In this document: one piece after another, positions 26,679 to 31,689 of the stretch | How the letters are laid out: the number at the start of each line of letters is the position of its first letter | How positions within the stretch are numbered: position 1 is the first letter of the stretch | Source of the DNA: Arthrobacter sp. ERGS1:01 | GTDB taxonomy: Bacteria; Actinomycetota; Actinomycetes; Actinomycetales; Micrococcaceae | Length of the DNA: 64,000 nucleotides | NCBI RefSeq assembly: GCF_001281315.1 | Contig: NZ_CP012479.1 | Coordinates: forward strand, 1,364,001 to 1,428,000 | Direction: 5' to 3' | Notes under the pieces: model-generated | Database searches by the model: none | Told to the model about the DNA's origin: nothing | The model's input: only the letters and a program-made list of their open reading frames with translations | Program-made: the position numbers and the translations under genes

Positions 26679-27020
26679 TTGAATAAAACAATGCTGCAAA
26701 CCCAACCGGGCCGGCGCAATGGCGGTTCACGGGCTCGACGCCATGGAAACCGCGTGGTCGTAGCCGCGATGCTGGGGTTGCTCCTGGTCACGGCTGCGTC
26801 ACCGGCATATGCCGAACAAACGGATCAATCAGGGGTGACCCTGACGGTCCGGATAGCACCCCAAGGTGGCTGCCCGGGCGCCAACGGATGCCCAAAACCG
26901 GCTTTGGCAGCCACCGGAAACGACTCCCTCGCCATGCTTGCCGCCAGCGCGGGTGCCGCCTTCCTTGGCTGCGGGGTGCTGGTGGCCGGCCGCCGGCGAC
27001 GTCAGGCGGCCCGACCCTAA
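26679..27020 (+). CDS. small LAxTG-anchored surface protein (CscD-like)
   Basis: A 113-aa exported protein with a basic N-terminus, a signal helix (about 24-46, ending SPAYAEQ), about 35 mature residues with two Cys (GGCPGANGCPKP), then LAATGND, a hydrophobic helix and RRRRQ. That is a complete sortase signal of the LAxTG type used by actinobacterial class E enzymes. The TTG at 26679 has GGGGGAA 10 bp upstream; an ATG at 26691 is the alternative. Small LPxTG proteins are the fourth component of csc clusters. Confidence 0.8.
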   Translation: MNKTMLQTQPGRRNGGSRARRHGNRVVVAAMLGLLLVTAASPAYAEQTDQSGVTLTVRIAPQGGCPGANGCPKPALAATGNDSLAMLAASAGAAFLGCGVLVAGRRRRQAARP

Positions 27021-27032
27021 ATATCTTCGCTT

Positions 27033-27055
27033 AAGGACGATTGGGCCCACTGCCG
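27033..27055. terminator. left arm of an intrinsic terminator split by the insertion element
   Basis: Positions 27033-27055 pair over 23 bp (one G-T) with 28509-28531, now 1.45 kb away on the other side of the IS. Joined through one CAAG copy, the two arms would make a tetraloop hairpin followed by TTTT. The terminator served the surface-protein trio and, from the other side, GH95. Confidence 0.85.
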
Positions 27056-27059
27056 CAAG
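27056..27059. repeat. target-site duplication CAAG (left)
   Basis: CAAG immediately before the left inverted repeat, repeated at 28505-28508 after the right one. A 4-bp duplication is within the IS3-family range. CAAG is also the loop of the split terminator. Confidence 0.85.
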
Positions 27060-27084
27060 TGAACTGCTCCCCGAAAGTTGGACT
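27060..27084. repeat. IS left inverted repeat
   Basis: 25 bp starting TGAACTGCTCCCCGAAAG; it differs from the complement of the right end at positions 8 and 17 only. Confidence 0.92.
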
Positions 27085-27119
27085 GATTAATTCGGTTCCT
27101 TACTTTCGGGGAGTTTTTT
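27067..27119 (+). promoter_or_regulatory. IS left-end hairpin with T6 tract masking the orfA ribosome site
   Basis: CTCCCCGAAAGT (27067-27078, inside the inverted repeat) is perfectly complementary to ACTTTCGGGGAG (27102-27113), which contains the orfA Shine-Dalgarno GGGGAG. TTTTTT (27114-27119) follows, then the ATG. Read-through RNA entering from outside would fold this hairpin, terminating transcription and hiding the ribosome site. This is a known type of IS self-limitation, inferred here. Confidence 0.75.
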
Positions 27120-27611
27120 ATGGATTCGCGGAGTTCGTTGAGTGCTCGGCAGCGGGTTGCTGCCATAGGGTTGTTCGAGGAAGGCTTCGGCTATGGTGCG
27201 GTTTCTTCTCGGCTGCAGGTCAGCAGGGATGCCTGTAAGCGCTTGGAGCAACGTTTCAAGATTTGGGGTAGGGCCGCTTTGGATAGACGACCGGCTGTGC
27301 CAGCGTATTCATTTGAGTTCAAGATCAAGGTGGTTCGTCAGTTCCTCGCTGCTGAAGCAACATCGACGGAACTGGCCCAGTTGTATCACTTGAGTTCGCC
27401 GAAACTCGTTCAAAGCTGGGTTCGGCGGTATCGCCAGGACGGTGAGGACGCTCTCAAGCCCCGGCCGAGGGGCCGCCCACACACCGCCGTGGACCAATTG
27501 CCTACCGAGGTTAGCGAGCTTGAGAAGCTGCGCCTTGAGAACCAGCGGTTGCAGGCCGAGAATGCCTACCTAAAAAAAGTACGGGCCTTGAGGAACCAAC
27601 CACCGCGTTGA
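27120..27611 (+). CDS. IS3-family transposase OrfA
   Basis: A 163-aa DNA-binding protein with two helix-turn-helix modules (LSARQRVAAIGLFEEGFGYG; FKIKVVRQFLAAEATSTELA) and a C-terminal leucine-zipper-like helix (ELEKLRLENQRLQAENAYLKK), the IS150-group layout. It ends just past the A7 slip site, and its TGA overlaps the TTG of orfB. Confidence 0.93.
   Translation: MDSRSSLSARQRVAAIGLFEEGFGYGAVSSRLQVSRDACKRLEQRFKIWGRAALDRRPAVPAYSFEFKIKVVRQFLAAEATSTELAQLYHLSSPKLVQSWVRRYRQDGEDALKPRPRGRPHTAVDQLPTEVSELEKLRLENQRLQAENAYLKKVRALRNQPPR
27572..27579 (+). other. A7G programmed -1 frameshift site
   Basis: Seven A followed by G (27572-27579), read as CTA AAA AAA GTA in orfA. A -1 slip continues as AAA AAA AGT ACG GGC and is in frame with orfB, giving the OrfAB transposase. 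This is standard for the IS3 family. Confidence 0.8.
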
Positions 27612-28465
27612 AGGTCAGCGCCGTGATCGCCCTCAGGGCCTCTCACCCCTTGCCCCTGCTCCTGGCCGCGGCCGGGCTGCCCCGCTCTACGTTCTTCCAC
27701 CGCCAGGCCGCGCTCACGGCCCCTGACCGGCACGCAGAACTCCGTGCCCGGATCCACGAGGTCTTCACCGAGGCCAAGGGCCGCTACGGGCACCGACGCA
27801 TCCATGCGTTCCTGCGCCGCCAGGGATGGCAGGTGGCGAAGAAGACCGTGTTAAAGCTGATGCGCGCCGAGAACCTGCTCTGCAAGGTCCGCAGCAGTCG
27901 CCGCAGGTATTCCTCCTACAAGGGCCAGGTCGGCAAGATCGCTGAAAACCTACTCAAGCGCCAGTTCGTCACCGCGGCACCGAACCTGACGTGGGTGACC
28001 GACGTGACCGAGTTCAAGGTCGCGGACCGCAAGGTCTACCTCTCCCCGGTCATGGACCTGTTCGACCGCTCCGTGGTCTCCTTCGCGGTCTCCGAGTCGC
28101 CCAACACGGCCTTCACCAACCGATCGCTCAGCGATGCGATCAGCACCCTGGGACCGGGCGAGGCACCAATGGTGCACTCGGACCAAGGATTCCAATACCA
28201 ACACGCCAGCTGGCAGAAGCTACTCAGCAACGCCGGCATGACCCAATCGATGTCCCGCAAGGGCAACTGCCTGGATAACTCAGTGATGGAGAACTTCTTC
28301 GGACACTTAAAAGAAGAGATGTTCCACCACCAAGAACACACCAGCCCCGAAAGCTTCATCACTGAACTCGAGGACTACATCCGCTGGTACAACAAAGACC
28401 GCATCTCGTTAACACTCGAGTGCCTGAGCCCGATGGAATACCGGGCCCAGGCACTCGCTACCTAG
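27608..28465 (+). CDS. IS3-family transposase OrfB (DDE integrase core)
   Basis: A 285-aa frame, normally made as the C-terminal part of OrfAB. HTH_21-like N-terminus (RYGHRRIHAFLRRQGWQVA), then rve core with catalytic Asp in WVTDVTEF, Asp in VHSDQGFQY and Glu in LDNSVMENFFGHLK. The end, SLTLECLSPMEYR, is the usual NxxSPxxY-type terminus. All catalytic residues are present. Confidence 0.94.
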   Translation: MKVSAVIALRASHPLPLLLAAAGLPRSTFFHRQAALTAPDRHAELRARIHEVFTEAKGRYGHRRIHAFLRRQGWQVAKKTVLKLMRAENLLCKVRSSRRRYSSYKGQVGKIAENLLKRQFVTAAPNLTWVTDVTEFKVADRKVYLSPVMDLFDRSVVSFAVSESPNTAFTNRSLSDAISTLGPGEAPMVHSDQGFQYQHASWQKLLSNAGMTQSMSRKGNCLDNSVMENFFGHLKEEMFHHQEHTSPESFITELEDYIRWYNKDRISLTLECLSPMEYRAQALAT

Positions 28466-28479
28466 ACTCTTATTTACCA

Positions 28480-28504
28480 AGTCCAACATTCGGGGACCAG
28501 TTCA
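28480..28504. repeat. IS right inverted repeat
   Basis: 25 bp ending GGGACCAGTTCA, complementary to the left end with two mismatches. Confidence 0.92.
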
Positions 28505-28508
28505 CAAG
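28505..28508. repeat. target-site duplication CAAG (right)
   Basis: Second copy of the 4-bp duplication flanking the IS. Confidence 0.85.
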
Positions 28509-28531
28509 CGGCAGTGGGCCCAGTCGTCCTT
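28509..28531. terminator. right arm of the split terminator with T tract
   Basis: Complement of 27033-27055 over 23 bp with one G-T pair, running into TTTTTG. Alone it cannot form the hairpin, so terminator function is lost in this strain. Confidence 0.85.
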
Positions 28532-28544
28532 TTTGTGGCCTGCC

Positions 28545-31448
28545 CTAGATCGCGCCCAATTTCCACTCCTGGCTCGCGGAGGACGTGGAGAGCGTCTTTT
28601 GGACAAGCCGGGCACCGTCCGTGGCGACCGATCCGGTCACGTCAAGGCACAGCCCGCTTGCCACGTTCACGAGCCGGTAATACCCGCTCGTCGCCGCCGG
28701 AACAAGCCTCCACCACTGATTTGGGCTGAAGTTGTCAGTCCATTGATCCAGCGGCTTCCCGTCGGTCATCGAGGTGCCCGGGTTGTCCAGGACCTTGCCG
28801 CTCTTGACGCTTGAGAGCCGGAACGAGCCGTCATATCCGGAAAACAGCTTCCACTGTTGATTCGTGCCGCCCGCCGGGGACCATTGGATCACCGCGGCGC
28901 CGTCGTTGGTGGACTGGGACTCAACGTCCATGACCTTCCCGCTTTGCCGGTTGACGAGCTGGCAGATTGCCGGCAACAGGCCAATCTGCAGTTCCACATG
29001 GACGCCGGCCGTGAGGTGCACCGTACGGGCATGATCGCCGAGGGGCGAGGCTGCCACGGTGGCCGCCGCCGCGGTGATTGAGGTGATGCCGCGCCGGCAG
29101 GCAAGGGTGATGTCCTGGGTAATATCCGAGACGATGGTTGCCACGGCCGATTGCCCGGCGATATCCCATGTCAGGCTTTCGACGAGGACGCGGTTGCGCC
29201 CGCGAACACCGGTGATGGTTCCCTTGGAGAGTTGCTCGGGCAGCGCGGGCAGGAGTTCCAGGAAACCGGGCCTGCTGTAGGTCAACGCCTCGGCGATGAC
29301 CGCGGGCAGGGCATGGGCCGCATCGGCATTGTAGGTGGTCAGTTCGGGATTGTGCGACGTTATCAGGGAACGCCAGACCATGTTGTTCCCAAGGATCTTC
29401 TTGATGTTGGTGTAAACACCGGCACCGTCCTTCAGGCGCGCGGAGGCTAGCGCACGGTGCAGGCTGCCATGGGCGGAATAGTTCTCATCTCCGCGCATGA
29501 TCAGGGCCTTGCGTGCGGTAAAGGTCAGATCGGGCCGTTCCTCGGGATTGATCTCGTGGAGCGGCCAGGCGCCGTACAGGTGGGAGACGTGCCGGTGGTT
29601 GTAGCGGTCGGTGAGTCCGGGCCAGGACCACTCGGCGAGTGCGCCGTCGGAATTGATCGTGTAGTCCGGGAGCTTGGCCAGCAGGGCCGTCCATCGAGCC
29701 ACACCCTGCCCGGCTCCCTGCTCAACGTTCAAGGTCTTGGCGGCATCCACGGCGGCCTGGAGTGCGTGCCGTCCGGCCATGATGTCAGCTGTTGCGTTGA
29801 TGGAGAGCATTTGGCCGGTGGAGGACGGCGAATTCTCCATTGAGTACGACGGTACAAACACCGACCTTCCGGCAGCGTCGGTGCGGGTCAGGAAGTCCTC
29901 GTAGAAGAGCGCCAACTCCATGAGTGCCGGGCCAAGCTTGTCCTTGTAGAACTTTTGGTCCCCCGTGACCTGGTAATACTCGAGCAGCGGGAACAGCAGC
30001 CAATCGGCGCCGCCGGTCCAGCATTCGCCGGGGAAGTCGCTGCTGTTGAAGTGGAGCATGTGCCCGTATTCGCCGTCGGTCCGCGTCGGAGCAAGGAACC
30101 CCCGGGCGCCGTAGATGTTCCGGGCGTTGGTGCGCCAATCGTCGAGCTGGCCCAGGATCAACTCGAAATAACCGTCCATGGCGCCGCTGGTGAGGATATT
30201 GCCGCCGGCAACCTGGAGGTTGATGTTGGCGTCGGTGGTGAAATCATCCGCCCAGGCACCATCCCAGCTGCCCGTCCAAATGCCCGTCAGGCGAGGCGGC
30301 AGCACCCCGGATGAACTCGCAAAAAGGTAGCGGCCCGAGTCATACATCCGCTCGAGCAGTGCTAGGTCGATGGTTGAGCGGTTTGCCGCCTGGCGGCTCG
30401 TCAACGCGCTCGTCGAGAGCGCCCGGTCCTGCACGGATACGCCGAGGTCCAGGGTTGAGCCGTCAAAGAGGGCCTGGTGGCCGGGGACGTGCCGGCGGAG
30501 CAGGGCGCCGTAGTCGGTCAGGAGCACGCTCAGCGCCGCATGGAGCGGACGGCCATTCCAATCGTTGGCTCCTTCGTACCTGGCAAGCTTGGTCAGCAGG
30601 ATGACCCGGGTGGCCTTGTTGACGGTCAACGTGGAGCCGTCCGTGGTGATCGAGGACCCCGCGCCCGTGATGACAACCCTGGTGGCGCCCTCAAATCCGT
30701 ACGCGCCCAGCCCCGCGGGGTAGGTGCCGCGGACCTCAAGATAACCGTTGCGGCCACTGACCGAGGTTGTGATGCCGTAGGTGACATTGCCCGGCACTGC
30801 CTCGAGGGCCGTGTTTGCACTGATGACTGTGTTGATGGTGCCCTGGGCGGAGGCTTGCAACTCGTGGACAATTGTCTGGCTGCCGCGGGAGACGAATGCG
30901 CGCCGCTGCCAGGTCCCGGAGTCGTCGGACCAGGCGTGGGTCACCTCCCCGGTGCGAAAATTTGTGGTCCGCACGTAGTCGGTGGGCGTGGCCAGGCCCG
31001 GACTGCTCAAGTGCAGTTCGTATCCGGGGTGGTACGTCTGTGTCCACTTCAGGGACCAGCCGGAGGCGAAGGCGTTTGACGCCCCCGTATAGTCGCCCGC
31101 GAGTGCCAAGTCCTGTACCTGCCCCAATCGGGAGGCTATGTTGGGTGGCTCCACCGTCCGGGTGCCGTTGGGGAGGACGAATCGATGATGGTTCAGGACA
31201 ACCTTTTCCAGCGCCGGTGACCCATGGAATACTGCGCCAAACTCACCATTGCCGGAGAGGAATCCGTCGGTCCATGACGACGCCGGCACCGTGTCGTACA
31301 GTCCCCGCTCCGGCAATGTTGCCGTTTCAGGCAGGGCCGCTGCGTCCTGGGCGGAGAGCAGGGCGCCCGGAAGCACCACCGCTCCTGCGGTCAGGGCCGA
31401 GGCAGTCAGGAAGCCCCGCCTGCCGAGGGGCCTGTCAAAGATGTTCAT
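28545..31448 (-). CDS. secreted GH95 alpha-L-fucosidase-like enzyme with C-terminal ricin domain
   Basis: A 967-aa protein. Tat-like leader (PLGRRGFLTASAL), GH95 N-terminal beta domain with WTDGFLSGNGEFGAVFHG, and an (alpha/alpha)6 barrel. Catalytic-region motifs are TDANINLQ (Asn pair, about residue 411) and PSYSMENSPS (general acid Glu, about 537). The last 130 residues or so are a ricin/CBM13-type domain (QxW repeats NQQWKLF, NQWWRL, SQEWKL). GH95 removes alpha-1,2-linked L-fucose or L-galactose, both found on plant AGPs and xyloglucan. The ATG at 31448 has GAGG upstream, and the LacI operators are about 200 bp upstream. Confidence 0.92.
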   Translation of the reverse strand: MNIFDRPLGRRGFLTASALTAGAVVLPGALLSAQDAAALPETATLPERGLYDTVPASSWTDGFLSGNGEFGAVFHGSPALEKVVLNHHRFVLPNGTRTVEPPNIASRLGQVQDLALAGDYTGASNAFASGWSLKWTQTYHPGYELHLSSPGLATPTDYVRTTNFRTGEVTHAWSDDSGTWQRRAFVSRGSQTIVHELQASAQGTINTVISANTALEAVPGNVTYGITTSVSGRNGYLEVRGTYPAGLGAYGFEGATRVVITGAGSSITTDGSTLTVNKATRVILLTKLARYEGANDWNGRPLHAALSVLLTDYGALLRRHVPGHQALFDGSTLDLGVSVQDRALSTSALTSRQAANRSTIDLALLERMYDSGRYLFASSSGVLPPRLTGIWTGSWDGAWADDFTTDANINLQVAGGNILTSGAMDGYFELILGQLDDWRTNARNIYGARGFLAPTRTDGEYGHMLHFNSSDFPGECWTGGADWLLFPLLEYYQVTGDQKFYKDKLGPALMELALFYEDFLTRTDAAGRSVFVPSYSMENSPSSTGQMLSINATADIMAGRHALQAAVDAAKTLNVEQGAGQGVARWTALLAKLPDYTINSDGALAEWSWPGLTDRYNHRHVSHLYGAWPLHEINPEERPDLTFTARKALIMRGDENYSAHGSLHRALASARLKDGAGVYTNIKKILGNNMVWRSLITSHNPELTTYNADAAHALPAVIAEALTYSRPGFLELLPALPEQLSKGTITGVRGRNRVLVESLTWDIAGQSAVATIVSDITQDITLACRRGITSITAAAATVAASPLGDHARTVHLTAGVHVELQIGLLPAICQLVNRQSGKVMDVESQSTNDGAAVIQWSPAGGTNQQWKLFSGYDGSFRLSSVKSGKVLDNPGTSMTDGKPLDQWTDNFSPNQWWRLVPAATSGYYRLVNVASGLCLDVTGSVATDGARLVQKTLSTSSASQEWKLGAI

Positions 31449-31648
31449 GATTGCCTCGAGTCTGCAATGGGCCGAACGTTTCGTGCCGAGCGAGGCGCCC
31501 GTGCGCGTTGGTTCCTGGCGCCGGGGACGGGTACGCCCGGCATCTCGGGGACATCGAGCTCGGCGCGGACGCCGCATTTCCATCTGGTGTGAATCGTCAT
31601 TGACCTGCCCTAGCTTGGTTGTGTGGGGGTAGTTGGCATCGATTAAAA

Positions 31649-31689
31649 TGTTCACGTAAACATCGGGTGGCGAGAACATTACGTGAATA
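31649..31689. promoter_or_regulatory. LacI-type operator pair, GH95 side
   Basis: TGTTCACGTAAACA (31649-31662), the exact reverse complement of the second GH30/GH43 site, and a weaker ACATTACGTGAATA (31676-31689, 10 of 14 matches). They lie upstream of the minus-strand GH95 gene. Confidence 0.7.

Follow-up and report, generated by a model that had tools for sequence, protein, structure and literature searches.

Several insertion sequences (IS) of the IS3 family are known for their specificity towards palindromic extragenic DNA. According to one report, IS1397 and ISKpn1 insert specifically in REP (palindromic unit) sequences, ISPsy8 does so in the REPs of Pseudomonas, and the transposases are held responsible for this REP-specific insertion (PMC1525189). 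The transposition pathway of IS3 involves a minicircle in which the two ends are abutted (PMC3299598). The group of elements analyzed here resembles IS1397, ISKpn1, and ISPsy8, being of the same family and specific for palindromic extragenic sequences. However, each of those elements is directed to one host REP family, whereas the present group occupies sequence-diverse, mostly terminator-like hairpins in both Actinobacteria and Proteobacteria. REP targeting by IS3 elements is therefore already known, and the apparently undescribed part is the targeting of terminator loops, together with a putative terminator carried by the left end of the IS. In the literature searched, coverage of which was partial, we found no description of terminator-loop targeting as a property of an IS3 group, whose absence in print is not established, and none of an IS-borne left-end terminator.

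A hairpin split at its loop

An earlier note on this DNA had proposed that an IS3-family element lies exactly in the loop of an intrinsic terminator and that the duplicated target is the loop itself. As for the geometry, this was confirmed in full: a CAAG-flanked IS of 1445 bp divides a 23-bp hairpin at its tetraloop, and the arms, their single G-T pair (27041), the CAAG loop, and the T5 run were all found at the proposed positions (Table 1). The arms pair at 23 of 23 positions, the G-T pair included. Once the IS and one CAAG are excised, the emptied site folds into a 23-bp stem (−49.0 kcal/mol) of which the duplicated CAAG is the loop. We listed the hairpins (stem of 9 bp or more, loop of 3 to 10 nt) of the emptied window, that is, the whole 64-kb stretch of DNA analyzed. 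By Watson-Crick stem length, with one mismatch allowed, the split hairpin is the longest of the 54 (22, followed by 19, 17, and 17). The left flank of the IS folded alone is not unusual (z −0.51), as expected because its partner arm is 1.4 kb away. The hairpin starts 12 nt past the stop codon of the upstream ORF, and 13 nt separate its other edge from the end of a converging ORF on the minus strand (28545-31679). With its GC-rich stem, short loop, T-tract, and position directly past a gene, the split target fits a predicted intrinsic terminator. The converging ORF encodes a GH95-type protein (Pfam) with a ricin-type lectin domain.

Table 1. Features of the insertion and its flanks (positions in the window)
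Feature	Position	Strand	Remark
Upstream ORF, no Pfam match	26679..27020	+	hairpin probably its terminator
Left arm of split terminator-like hairpin	27033..27055	+	pairs with 28509-28531
CAAG, left copy of target duplication (tetraloop)	27056..27059	+	
IS3-family element, 1445 bp	27060..28504	+	
Left inverted repeat (IRL)	27060..27083	+	22/24 positions identical to IRR
Left-end hairpin (27067-27078 with 27102-27113), then T6 (27114-27119), directly before orfA	27067..27119	+	covariation in relatives
orfA, 163 aa, two HTH regions	27120..27611	+	
AAAAAAAG run before orfA/orfB overlap, candidate −1 frameshift site	27572..27579	+	orfB in −1 frame of orfA
orfB, DDE transposase (rve domain)	27608..28465	+	
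Right inverted repeat (IRR)	28481..28504	+	
CAAG, right copy of target duplication	28505..28508	+	
Right arm of split hairpin	28509..28531	+	contains TGGGCCCA box at 28515-28522
T5 run behind hairpin	28530..28534	+	

The element shows the layout of the IS3 family, with two ORFs of which the second is in the −1 frame, CA at the IS termini, and a 3- to 4-bp duplication, and its OrfB scores 313.5 bits against the IS3-family model NF033516 (cut-off 160). OrfB is 46% identical to the OrfB of both IS150 and ISEcB1 of E. coli, compared with 28-32% for four other IS3 elements from the bacterial family of the host, and OrfA is 163 aa long against about 106 aa in G083. By OrfB identity and the long OrfA with two HTH regions, rather than by a tree, the element is placed in the IS150 subgroup. 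Both E. coli elements have a similarly long OrfA, and ISEcB1 shares with the focal IS terminator-like hairpin targets and a left-end hairpin followed by T6. The host genome carries six copies of the focal IS at 99-100% identity. It probably belongs to the Micrococcaceae, given that Arthrobacter, Rothia, and Glutamicibacter records of the genome collection reappeared as duplicates of family-level loci.

Insertion sites of related elements

We collected loci from the host genome, the genus, a genome collection (best 80 of 582), the bacterial family, and E. coli. Passing 190 loci to the end-finder gave 135 distinct sites, 9 duplicates, and 46 loci without both ends; 130 of the 135 were scored, 5 being dropped for short flanks or N. 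The ends of the control ISs were set by comparison of copies, all others by sequence match. The strict test called a dyad when a Watson-Crick stem of 8 bp or more, with at most one mismatch and a loop of 3 to 10 nt, was centred no more than 3 nt from the centre of the duplication. A looser test allowed G-T pairs, asked for a stem of 10 bp or more and a loop of 3 to 16 nt, and accepted centres up to 8 nt away. Near controls were positions within the same emptied sites at a distance of about 25 to 100 nt, and far controls lay further off.

A strict dyad was found at 68 of the 130 sites, compared with 58/4940 near and 29/2600 far positions, and at none of 15 insertions of four other IS3 elements. 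The looser test gave 100 of the 130 sites (30 failed it), against 223/2340 near positions, 164/1950 far positions, and 1/15 insertions of the other IS3 elements; a loose RNA-fold measure separates them less (102/131 sites, 265/1350 random positions, 4/15). Where a dyad of 8 bp or more lay within 60 nt (n = 85), the best one was no more than 3 nt from the duplication centre in 68 sites and no more than 8 nt in 79. Grouped into crude element clusters, 36 of 61 clusters included one or more strict sites; the first-listed site was strict in 28 of 61. Duplications of 4 bp coincide with a 4-nt loop in 10 of 14 cases; those of 3 bp do not track loop size, only 14 of 47 having a 3-nt loop.

These counts bear on two simple explanations. 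Random insertion, with intergenic copies alone persisting, would also leave ISs at hairpins, since terminators and REPs are intergenic and terminators are common there; but the near controls come from the same emptied sites, and this comparison and the 0/15 of the other IS3 elements largely contradict such survivor bias, which we regard as very improbable. Still less credible is chance, by which one IS happened to fall on one loop. The focal insertion is indeed a single locus, and the genus search, which covered 23 genomes, yielded no empty allele (short matches came from 3 of the 22 other genomes, and none of them reached the insertion point), yet the counts of the group, under the strict and the looser test alike, contradict this explanation.

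Among the proteobacterial sites listed, 9 of the 11 scored were strict, and the misses were L087 and L227, the latter an E. coli site without a dyad and the sole site of IS150 type that was scored. The IS150-type copies differ from the focal IS also in their surroundings, as seven of nine E. coli regions (L233-L239) adjoin hokA, hokB, hokE, or mokC, and two (L240, L241) lie elsewhere. Separately, two sites from the same genus (L091, L101) have no clean duplication and show hairpins of about 26 to 28 bp that differ from each other by pairing-preserving changes. Ten relatives are longer, with 1870 to 2195 bp between the ends found (L020, L026, L028, L045, L145, L150, L161, L181, L191, L192); two of these, L045 and L028, have additional short ORFs (of 103 and 89 aa, respectively) between orfB and the right end, which are possible passenger genes.

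E. coli also provided sites without the IS. In E. coli B, ISEcB1 lies between yfbM and nuoN. In strain JME67 (L229) the sequence past yfbM is different, and in strain C (L228) the IS is present; therefore, two other strains without it (L242, L243) were used as the empty site, and both have an intact 7-bp hairpin preceded by A8. A second ISEcB1 copy, with an imperfect duplication, lies past sseA, and two strains lacking it have an 18-bp stem with the loop AATT. Read most simply, the hairpins at the two E. coli sites predate the insertions. In E. coli 510016 (L231), ISEcB1 occupies the same yfbM-nuoN hairpin with a left loop sequence unlike that of strain B, by recombination or a second insertion.

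The 11 sites read in reverse and the unorientable L071 were handled before the tract and left-end counts; flank-column, pairing, and background-window counts include them as read. At the oriented strict sites (n = 67), a run of three or more A on the left occurs together with one of three or more T on the right in 28, the A run alone in 13, the T run alone in 8, and neither in 18, so that 49 of 67 adjoin a tract; single background windows contain T3+ in 180/2040 cases and A3+ in 175/2040. Based on these counts, terminator-like hairpins are the commonest class of target. Several Arthrobacter-type copies lie in GAGCGT palindromes without tracts. The insertions show no orientation bias relative to the tracts, with 13 sites having A only and 8 T only.

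Structure and sequence at the copies of the focal element

All six copies in the host genome have GGGCCC or GGGTCC 5 to 10 nt from one IS end, which is the right end in five and the left end in L003, a copy reversed in its locus. This suggests that sequence matters too. The focal copy (L001) is centred on its loop, and L004 lies inside a 28-bp hairpin stem, 5.5 nt off centre. The other four (L002, L003, L005, L006) have stems of just 7 to 9 bp; inspection places them within REP-like repeats, between TGGGCCCA-type boxes, so that four of the six copies are in REP-like repeats and two in other hairpins. Similar repeats that contain TGGGCCCA boxes were observed at L116, L117, L119, L126, L128, L129, and L134 of the same genome; some of them are arranged in tandem with a spacing of about 57 to 67 bp. 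As a word enriched genome-wide, TGGGCCCA was ruled out (it occurs 134 times, and the reversed control 159 times).

The earlier note had named a majority of hairpin loops among copies above 90% identity as support for terminator targeting. The group satisfies this and the element alone does not: in the host genome, one copy of six is exactly in a loop and two of six are in a stem of 10 bp or more. Its broader proposal of structure-directed insertion into terminators survives as a strong tendency of the IS150-like group, on the strict dyads, the tracts, and the two empty alleles in E. coli. It does not hold as a strict rule, since the short stems and REP-like repeats at four of the six own copies indicate that the target is not confined to terminators and that sequence contributes.

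One could go further and suppose that the transposase reads only a short box, here TGGGCCCA, common in the palindromic repeats and hairpins of the host, the pairing being incidental. The box beside all six copies speaks for this, given that GGGCCC occurs in only 2 of the 54 strong hairpins of the window, and so do the GAGCGT palindromes shared by several Arthrobacter-type copies. Across the group, however, the arms vary while their pairing is kept: at the sites with 3-bp duplications no flank column has a base above about 55%, and the fraction paired at a given distance rises to about 50%, compared with 25% when shifted. Moreover, in the long hairpins of L001 and L004 pairing extends far beyond the box. 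We therefore consider a purely sequence-directed choice unlikely. Our preferred explanation, which we hold to be probable, is that IS3 elements of the IS150-like group insert with a staggered cut centred on dyad-symmetric DNA, preferring the loops of hairpins that are most often terminator-like, with an element-specific sequence preference on top.

The left end and a model of insertion

In all of the 86 distinct left ends that were oriented, IRL and the DNA just inside it form a hairpin of 8 bp or more, followed by three or more T in 69, and a start codon is usually close behind. The hairpin test is permissive, 43 of 88 right ends passing it as well; mean folding energy is −36.6 kcal/mol for left ends (n = 85) vs −18.3 kcal/mol for right ends (n = 88). 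Among 18 left ends picked for diversity from 88, both partners change with pairing retained at 8 of the 14 pairs of the consensus. The left-end hairpin of the focal IS has a z of −6.6 as RNA and −5.9 as DNA. A generic terminator scan gave no excess over shuffles and called just the inner part of the focal hairpin. The structure is thus a candidate terminator, a hairpin with T-tract that is conserved with covariation, though without an excess in the generic scan.

In IS10, IS50, and IS30, a structure at the outer end restricts how much transposase is made from transcription that originates outside, and the end hairpins act mainly on translation. By comparison, the left end described here, a hairpin with a T-tract, looks like a terminator. 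It would stop transcripts from outside and thereby silence the transposase gene. As the covarying hairpin usually has a T-tract before orfA, the IS may also replace the terminator that it splits, its left end taking over for transcripts that enter from the left. Low harm to the host is plausible because of this predicted terminator-like hairpin at the left end of the IS; given the lack of orientation bias, such replacement would serve just part of the insertions.

Relatives also contain mini-elements of 58 to 62 bp, in which an IRR-like end closes the left-end hairpin. The exact pattern occurs once each in 6 of 295 genomes, and a search for it in the host genome found none. When eight different mini-elements were excised and the empty sites folded, six lay, by inspection, in or near a hairpin loop (L106, L110, L114, L250, L251, L253) and two did not (L103, L252); just three of the eight have a duplication of 2 to 3 bp. 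Overall, mini-element loci with the IS ends are L106, L110, L114, and L250-L255.

Under dyad-centred insertion, the staggered cut, mostly giving a duplication of 3 to 4 bp, would fall on the centre of the dyad, and the focal CAAG would be the exact case. A symmetric transpososome may read the dyad, either as an extruded hairpin or cruciform or as two half-sites, and by cutting 3 to 4 bp apart at its centre would produce a duplication equal to the loop. In the circular IS3 intermediate, the junction, made up of IRR, a short spacer, and IRL, might be shaped arm-loop-arm like the target; the IS end arms that would form it, one on either side of the spacer, are complementary at 22 of 24 positions. 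An element-specific sequence preference, a GGGCCC-type box for the focal IS, would be layered on the choice of dyad. We also put forward, tentatively and as something we are inclined to doubt rather than accept, a bolder version: the IS150-like lineage would read DNA secondary structure itself, entering the extruded loop of a terminator hairpin shaped like its own circle junction and swapping in its own covarying IRL terminator in a near-silent insertion, as would the hairpin-only derivatives of about 60 bp.

If dyad-centred insertion is true, intrinsic terminators, which are present in nearly every bacterium, would serve a widespread group of transposons as a general safe harbour, and this would help to explain how such elements spread without harm to their neighbours. 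It would also flag host terminators that have been swapped for IS-borne ones, and target choice based on structure rather than sequence would be directly testable with ISEcB1 in laboratory E. coli.
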